Of a stretch of 64,000 nt of DNA, positions 29,941-30,994 are shown piece after piece (position 1 is the stretch's first letter; every line of letters begins with the position of its first letter). The stretch covers positions 3,101,306-3,165,305 of the forward strand of contig CP036352.1 in assembly GCA_007753915.1 (NCBI GenBank), given 5' to 3'. Position numbers and translations under genes: made by a program. A model generated the notes under the pieces. That model made no database searches. It had not been told where the DNA came from and worked only from the letters and a program-made list of their open reading frames with translations. The DNA is from Phycisphaerae bacterium RAS2. Its GTDB lineage: Bacteria > Planctomycetota > Phycisphaerae > UBA1845 > UTPLA1.

Positions 29941-29968
29941 TTGCAGTGACGGCGCCGGGACTTAGAAT
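29941..29968 (+). promoter_or_regulatory. Promoter of the small membrane protein/heme oxygenase operon
   Basis: -35 TTGCAG at 29941-29946, a 16-base spacer and -10 TAGAAT at 29963-29968. The expected start near 29975 falls at the edge of the Fur-like palindrome centred at 29987. Confidence 0.6.
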
Positions 29969-29976
29969 GGCTATCC

Positions 29977-29997
29977 AATTGAGAATGAGTCTCAATT
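29977..29997 (+). promoter_or_regulatory. Fur-box-like operator
   Basis: TGAGAAT-G-AGTCTCA (29980-29994) is a 7-1-7 palindrome with six of seven pairs matching, and AAT/ATT flanks extend the symmetry. It closely resembles bacterial Fur boxes of the TGAGAATnATTCTCA form. Its position over the predicted transcript start suits repression by iron-loaded Fur, and the downstream heme oxygenase is a logical iron-acquisition target. Confidence 0.65.
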
Positions 29998-30029
29998 TCG
30001 TTTGGCACAACGCCATGGGAGCCTCTACC

Positions 30030-30230
30030 ATGCCTTCGATCATGTCGCACCCCGTTGCTCAACCTTCGACCGAACCGGCCGCCGCGCCGAACAACCAGAC
30101 AGGATTCTGGATTCGCGCGCGACGCTGGACCGCGCGGCTGGGCATGGCGGGGTTCCTGTTCTTTCTCGTCAAGGGTCTGCTCTGGCTGGCCATTCCGGCC
30201 ATCCTTGCGAAGAAGGCCCTGGAGAATTGA
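30030..30230 (+). CDS. Small single-span membrane protein
   Basis: A 66-residue protein from ATG 30030, with GGGAG eight bases upstream; an ATG at 30015 is possible. The first 25 residues are polar and Pro/Gln-rich, followed by a basic stretch (FWIRARRWTARL) and one hydrophobic span (GMAGFLFFLVKGLLWLAIPAILA) ending in a short basic tail. The order suggests N-terminus in. It is the first gene after the Fur-like operator and 65 bases ahead of the heme oxygenase, so it may act in heme or iron handling. No family was recognised. Confidence 0.7.
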   Translation: MPSIMSHPVAQPSTEPAAAPNNQTGFWIRARRWTARLGMAGFLFFLVKGLLWLAIPAILAKKALEN

Positions 30231-30238
30231 ATCGCCCT

Positions 30239-30256
30239 CGCCGGCCTTCGCGGCCG
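30239..30256 (+). other. Hairpin between the small membrane protein and heme oxygenase genes
   Basis: CCGGCC-TTCGC-GGCCGG forms a strong stem just after the small gene. The nearest T run (CTTTTT) is about 15 bases further on, so it is a poor terminator and more likely an attenuating or RNA-stabilising element before the second gene's ribosome site. Confidence 0.45.
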
Positions 30257-30295
30257 GTTGTGCCATCTGTCTTTTTATGAGAGGACCGAACGATC

Positions 30296-30994
30296 ATGCA
30301 GCTTGAAGAATCGACCGTCGCCACGCCAGCCGACATCATGGACGCCCTGCGCACCGGCACCCAAAAGCTTCACGATCAGACTGAATCCGGCGCGTTCAAT
30401 GATGCGCTGCTCAAAGGAAAGCTGCCGCTCGACTCGTACGTGGACATGCTCGGCCAGCTTCTGCTGGTGCATCGCGCGCTGGAGCGCCGACTGCGCGACC
30501 ATCGCGCCGCGCACCCCGCGATCGACCGCGTCGTGCGCGAGCACTATCTGCAGGAGCCTTATCTGCTGGATGATCTCGCCTACTTCGGTCGCAACCCGGA
30601 GCAGGTTGAACCGTTGCCGTCGGTTCAGGCGTTTGAGACGCAGATGGATGCCACGGCGAAGCAGAACCCTGCATCGTTGCTCGGCTACCTGTATGTTCTG
30701 GAAGGCAGCAACAACGGCGGGCGGTTCATCGCGCGGGCCGTTCGCCGCGTGTACAACCTCCCCGACACGCACGGCACGCGCTACCTCGATCCTTACGGCG
30801 AGCAGCAGAAGGAGTATTGGCAGGAATTCAAGGCGGACATGCGATCCGTGGAGTTCTCCGACGCCGACCGCGCCGCGATCCTTGAGGCCGCGAACCAGAT
30901 GTTCATCGCCGTGATGCGGCTGCATGTCGAGATGTATGCCCCGATCGCCGCGACGAAGCCCTCCGGCGGCAAATGCCCGTTTCACCATGGATGA
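30296..30994 (+). CDS. Biliverdin-producing heme oxygenase
   Basis: A 232-residue all-helical protein of the heme oxygenase family, which opens heme to biliverdin, CO and Fe(II). The proximal histidine is in GTQKLHDQTESG. The glycine-rich distal helix over the heme is GYLYVLEGSNNGGRFIAR. The tail ends GGKCPFHHG. Its Cys-Pro dipeptide resembles a heme-regulatory motif and may give a second heme or metal contact, but this is inference. The Fur-like operator upstream supports a role in recovering iron from heme. Electron donor genes are not adjacent. Confidence 0.9.
   Translation: MQLEESTVATPADIMDALRTGTQKLHDQTESGAFNDALLKGKLPLDSYVDMLGQLLLVHRALERRLRDHRAAHPAIDRVVREHYLQEPYLLDDLAYFGRNPEQVEPLPSVQAFETQMDATAKQNPASLLGYLYVLEGSNNGGRFIARAVRRVYNLPDTHGTRYLDPYGEQQKEYWQEFKADMRSVEFSDADRAAILEAANQMFIAVMRLHVEMYAPIAATKPSGGKCPFHHG

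Follow-up and report, generated by a model that had tools for sequence, protein, structure and literature searches.

A putative Fur-controlled heme oxygenase operon with a conserved membrane microprotein in Phycisphaerae bacterium RAS2

The locus and its heme oxygenase

The stretch of DNA analysed here (the window) comprises 64,000 nucleotides of the genome of Phycisphaerae bacterium RAS2 (assembly GCA_007753915.1, contig CP036352.1, positions 3,101,306 to 3,165,305 of the forward strand). Within it, a promoter-like pair of hexamers and an inverted repeat precede two genes that encode a short membrane protein and a heme oxygenase (HO) (Table 1).

Table 1. Features of the locus in window coordinates; the last row gives positions in related loci
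Feature	Position	Strand	Basis or remarks
-35 box TTGCAG	29941..29946	+	sequence; TTGC kept in G108 and G098
-10 box TAGAAT	29963..29968	+	sequence; identical in G108 (congener) and G098 (another genus)
Candidate Fur-type operator AATTGAGA-ATGAG-TCTCAATT	29977..29997	.	over the expected transcript start
Shine-Dalgarno-like GGGAG, microprotein	30017..30021	+	read from sequence
Single-span membrane microprotein, 66 aa, unnamed family, core WTARLGMAGFLFFLVKGLLWLAIP	30030..30230	+	homologues, hydrophobicity
Predicted membrane helix	30141..30209	+	F44, F45, K48 and G49 family-invariant; F42 and W52 nearly invariant
Shine-Dalgarno-like AGAGGA, HO	30280..30285	+	read from sequence
Heme oxygenase, 232 aa	30296..30994	+	PF01126, E 4e-32; proximal His26 (KLHDQTE), distal EGSNNGG
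CPFHHG C-terminal tail of HO, heme-regulatory-motif-like	30974..30991	+	CP tails in other HOs
TGATTGATATATCAATCA-like palindrome, HO operons of family f3	L191 3844-3861; L190 3800; L029 2379; L034 2372; L192 4282

An earlier note made from the letters of this DNA had read the downstream gene as a heme oxygenase, and the assignment holds: the PF01126 match scores 112 bits against a cut-off of 23, the closest solved heme oxygenases (HO-2 and HO-1 in the PDB) are matched with E 8e-14, and KLHDQTE aligns with EAHDRAE of HO-2 at the proximal heme histidine. Heme-degrading activity is predicted from the family. The protein resembles other bacterial enzymes of PF01126 (the HmuO, PigA/HemO and BphO types) in its family profile, its proximal histidine and the iron-type operator of its gene, but differs from them in sharing an operon with a membrane microprotein and in its C-terminal tail. 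The window HO ends KCPFHHG. C-terminal tails of the CPFH-like or CP kind are found in about ten more HOs of the order (L012, L013, L014, L015, L016, L018, L022, L036 and L037), while two HOs of genus g85 carry CPFAHG or CPFSGG near the N-terminus (L030 and L031). Mammalian HO-2 likewise has Cys-Pro heme regulatory motifs near its C-terminus, which, according to an excerpt of PMC11900463, affect its interaction with the reductase. The bacterial tails are reminiscent of these motifs, and heme binding by them is putative. A hairpin between the two genes was also considered as an attenuator and rejected: its fold z-scores were only -1.0 and -1.2, and it had no Rfam match.

Promoter and operator

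The earlier note described a well-formed promoter. TTGCAG and TAGAAT lie where it placed them, separated by 16 nt; taken alone the pair is unremarkable and weak, with mismatches at 4 of 12 positions (shuffle P 0.055). A stock promoter scanner picks another pair, at 30002-30031, which we set aside in view of the conservation of TAGAAT and TTGC in related genomes. The palindrome of the same note, TGAGAAT-G-AGTCTCA, is present at 29980-29994 (centre 29987), and it does cover the expected transcript start, in a position that overlaps the promoter. Read in the proposed 7-1-7 form it contains one mispaired position; it is better described as a perfect 8-5-8 inverted repeat.

Searching with a 17-bp pattern of the repeat, allowing at most one mismatch, detected it in 39 of the 114 genomes of the order, against a single genome for the reversed-pattern control. 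The operator consensus is CTAATTGAGACTSAGTCTCAATTAG, and 34 sites give (C)TAATTGAGACTSAGTCTCAATTA(G); a literature search for the consensus letters found no paper with them. The repeat lies upstream of HO in 15 of the 39 HO loci of the order, where well under one would be expected, and in 11 of the 13 HO loci of the family to which this genome belongs. Three genomes that have no microprotein (G102, G113 and G103) carry the repeat directly before HO; in three others (G099, G101 and G089) the Fur orthologue is present and HO has no repeat upstream. At most of the 34 sites the repeat is preceded, at a distance of 3-12 bp, by a -35/-10-like pair, and these pairs show a mean of 3.41 mismatches in 12 positions, compared with 5.91 +/- 0.17 in shuffled upstream sequences. 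The inverted repeat is conserved far beyond chance.

The genes that adjoin the sites are the HO operon in at least 14 genomes and feoA or feoB in at least 11 genomes other than RAS2. Further genes, checked with Pfam, encode a CbiX-like lipoprotein, a DtxR-type regulator, superoxide dismutase and pyruvate:ferredoxin oxidoreductase. The operator was also seen before prepilin-like (FTLIELLV) genes in several relatives (L164, L175, L177 and L180).

A genome-wide motif scan, suggested in the earlier note, was run on the RAS2 genome. An extended 23-bp form of the operator occurs exactly three times in the 4.32 Mb, and the control not at all; the three sites precede feoAB (feoA PF04023, feoB PF02421), the gene for the CbiX-like lipoprotein (PF01903) and the HO operon. 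At the second of these sites a Kelch/galactose-oxidase-like gene lies on the other side. The lipoprotein (L186 3043-4011; G000:C1 near 1153025) contains a His-rich stretch, and its gene has the operator in at least five genomes; it may serve the iron response as an extracytoplasmic metal chelatase.

The probable regulator

Fur-type control of the operon, as the earlier note had proposed, is well supported because the operator is shared with feoAB, a single Fur orthologue co-occurs with it and its position overlaps the promoter. On these grounds we consider Fur-type iron control very probable. The genome encodes one FUR-family protein (G000:C1:2621904); among solved structures it is closest to Fur (E 8e-28), followed by Zur (2e-16) and PerR (4e-14). 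Of 65 near-complete genomes, 14 have no Fur-family gene, and the site is absent from every one of these (P 1.6e-4, uncorrected for relatedness); the 29 genomes that carry the site and are at least 90% complete each have such a gene. A tree was built of 41 FUR-family proteins, and the site-bearing genomes placed there form one clade, whose members are 51-99% identical to the Fur of the window genome.

The box itself is Fur-like in geometry and divergent in sequence, and it is not a classical Fur box. Like the classical box, it spans 15 bp as a 7-1-7 inverted repeat, ends in TGA...TCA, is flanked by A/T and lies over a promoter, but its half-sites read GAGACT where the classical ones read GATAAT, the differences being G at the third place and C at the fifth. 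TGAGACT-S-AGTCTCA has 10 of 14 half-site positions in common with TGATAAT/ATTATCA, and the window site has one GAGAAT half. In Aliivibrio, an excerpt of PMC7536154 describes weaker Fur binding when the A that corresponds to this C was changed to C. Fur is the likely rather than the demonstrated regulator. As in known Fur regulons, the operator precedes feoAB and tracks the Fur orthologue; unlike them, the extended site is limited to its three copies in the genome. A search of the literature for a Fur regulon in planctomycetes found none. The HO operon, feoAB and the CbiX-like gene would together make up a planctomycete Fur regulon whose box is divergent and whose targets are very few.

Absence of the palindrome from relatives that keep the gene pair, which the earlier note had named as evidence against its reading, was found in two other lineages. 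Several HO operons of family f3 carry another promoter palindrome (Table 1), and the HO promoters of genus g85 (L030, L031, L032 and L038) contain a conserved direct repeat, AACTTTC...AACTTTC, and no Fur-type palindrome. Sampled HO genomes of f3 and g85 that have no site encode other FUR paralogues only; one of them (G023) has a single divergent sister sequence. Because the relatives placed in the tree do not have this Fur orthologue and carry other promoter repeats, we read the absence as replacement of the regulator and not as refutation: in both groups, it looks as if the regulator was exchanged around a conserved gene pair.

The microprotein family

The 66-residue one-span protein described in the earlier note is present as an open reading frame with a single hydrophobic stretch (mean Kyte-Doolittle value 2.26 over its best 17 residues). 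Its family comprises 107 distinct sequences from Planctomycetota, Bacteroidota, Acidobacteriota, Ignavibacteria, Gammaproteobacteria and others, with the core WxKRxGxxGFLFFLxKGLxWL, in which FF, K and G are invariant and W is present in all but one sequence. The invariance of FF..KG arises partly by construction, as sequences were anchored on the motif, yet it was present in all 122 sequences. One face of the helix is the most conserved (100 degrees, permutation P 0.025). Between RAS2 and its congener G108, the codons of the core show three synonymous changes and no nonsynonymous change. Conservation in several phyla together with these synonymous changes led us to reject a spurious reading frame, and by the same marks the gene is genuine. 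Ten microproteins of other phyla have Cys-Pro before the helix (for example ECPVPHKH); an eleventh CP match (L290) was left out of the count for its badly called start.

The window protein and five relatives gave no Pfam or NCBIfam match above the cut-off, only sub-threshold ones. HemP/HmuP, small regulators of heme uptake, are likewise small proteins encoded near heme genes, but the microprotein is a hydrophobic one-span protein, and identity with them was rejected in the absence of a Pfam hemP match at E <= 1. A literature search for a small membrane protein associated with heme oxygenase or HemS found nothing relevant.

The earlier note had suggested looking for the reading frame beside HO in relatives. 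In the order, 23 of 24 genomes with a microprotein match (E <= 1e-4) have it there, the exception being G026, in which it adjoins MddA; 14 of the 39 HO genomes of the order have no microprotein. At the level of the phylum it lies beside HO in 19 of 20 matches, including a lineage whose HO has the HO-1 motif GDLSGG.

A wider survey covered the best 80 of at least 422 loci, 72 of them from other phyla, with genes in relatives called by a simple ORF script that leaves some start codons uncertain. At seven non-planctomycete loci the gene directly upstream encodes a PF03992 monooxygenase (ABM) closest to the heme-degrading enzymes HmuQ, IsdG and MhuD; this IsdG/MhuD-like subfamily occurs in 8 of 40 sampled genomes and adjoins the microprotein in seven of the eight. 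Two Flavobacteriales have upstream a two-domain HemS (E 1e-76), and the start of the microprotein gene overlaps the HemS stop codon; in one Phycisphaeraceae genome ChuX/HutX is the next gene. HemS breaks down heme, as stated in an excerpt of PMC11773379. The microprotein is therefore shared by three to four classes of protein, unrelated to one another, that degrade or handle heme. Outside Planctomycetota, about 0.1 such neighbours would be expected by chance, a rough figure based on two heme-degrading genes in every 4000, with relatedness left out of account, against nine loci observed, perhaps 3-4 independent groups.

The microprotein also occurs away from heme genes. Among the 80 best loci, most Bacteroidota and Acidobacteriota copies have varied neighbours, most carriers outside Planctomycetota have no heme gene beside it, and the methanethiol S-methyltransferase MddA (NF045656) adjoins it at four loci (L053, L243, L268 and L302). 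Neither a PF01126 HO nor the linked ABM subfamily is encoded in 24 of the 40 sampled genomes, an upper bound for genomes that have no heme-degrading enzyme, as the search covered those two families.

Model of the operon

Taken together, these observations suggest a two-gene iron-starvation operon for heme breakdown, repressed by Fur and encoding a membrane partner for HO, a reading to which we assign a probability of roughly 0.6. When iron is plentiful, metal-loaded Fur, the single Fur-family protein of the genome, would sit on the repeat and block RNA polymerase. As iron falls, Fur would leave, and the operon would be expressed together with feoAB and the CbiX-like lipoprotein. Release of iron from heme is the known activity of the heme oxygenase family, and HO would open heme and free its iron. 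The microprotein is predicted by the positive-inside rule to be a one-span inner-membrane protein with a cytoplasmic N-terminus, and its conserved helix face, FxFF..KG..W, may bind a partner. Most likely it would dock the soluble enzyme that degrades heme at the membrane, at the point where heme comes in or electrons are delivered.

We tentatively prefer this docking role, at somewhat less than even odds, because the neighbouring enzymes differ in fold but share a substrate, because one helix face is conserved, and because mammalian HO-1 offers a parallel: its hydrophobic C-terminus holds the enzyme at the membrane and helps it to meet its reductase (an excerpt of PMC3335857). The resemblance is functional only, with no homology shown, and it differs in that the membrane helix here would be a separate protein. 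With the same reserve, the unnamed family could be a shared membrane platform for unrelated enzymes, namely HO, the IsdG/MhuD-like monooxygenase and HemS/ChuX. The partnership in heme breakdown proposed in the earlier note finds good if indirect support in neighbours of these classes, tempered by MddA and the non-heme neighbours; the alternative role it offered, iron export, gained no support.

The microprotein could instead be a single-span membrane protein of a general kind, without a specific role in heme metabolism, its adjacency to HO being a habit of the planctomycete lineage. This explanation deserves serious consideration, if somewhat less credence than docking: it accommodates the varied neighbours of most Bacteroidota and Acidobacteriota carriers, the 24 sampled genomes that encode neither a PF01126 HO nor the linked ABM, and the recurrence of MddA, whereas tight pairing with HO, IsdG-like ABM, HemS and ChuX in distant phyla would not be expected from one inherited neighbourhood. 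Movement of heme, iron or biliverdin across the membrane, by the microprotein as a small transporter or a subunit of one, seems unlikely to us; a single span with an invariant lysine and the iron-type operator would suit such a function, but one short helix alone is rarely a transporter, the operon contains no transporter gene, and the Pfam and NCBIfam searches matched no transport family.

Other readings concern the enzyme and the regulator. HO might produce biliverdin as a phytochrome chromophore rather than release iron, and its distal motif, EGSNNGG in place of GDLSGG, is what we take to be the phytochrome type. The operator shared with feoAB argues against this purpose, as does the reading of the ORFs at the loci, where no phytochrome gene lies beside HO, and we regard it as improbable. 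That the repeat is bound by a metal regulator of the DtxR/MntR type, which would leave the operon metal-controlled, has a small but slightly better chance. The half-sites depart from the classical Fur hexamer (as given in the excerpt of PMC7536154), in G076 and G089 the gene behind the repeat is of the DtxR type, and RAS2 itself has one DtxR-like gene; yet two site-bearing genomes (G036 and G041) have no PF01325 match, and the 15-bp geometry with TGA...TCA ends, the superoxide dismutase gene among the sites, the Fur-family gene in every site-bearing genome of at least 90% completeness and the single clade of those in the tree also argue against such a regulator.

If the microprotein is a partner common to unrelated heme-degrading enzymes, it would be an overlooked, missing component of bacterial heme iron recovery, encoded by a gene too short to have been named, and functionally akin to the anchor that holds mammalian heme oxygenase at the membrane. 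Its occurrence beside several unrelated heme-degrading enzymes in other phyla makes it a promising candidate for a component of bacterial heme breakdown not yet recognised. Two further observations were made at loci of the family. In Ignavibacteria, the promoter ahead of the ABM gene in operons of the IsdG-like enzyme and the microprotein (L227, L252 and L253) contains an inverted repeat of the GGACTTGATTAGTCC type. At L268, a bacterial globin gene (PF01152) follows those for the microprotein and MddA.
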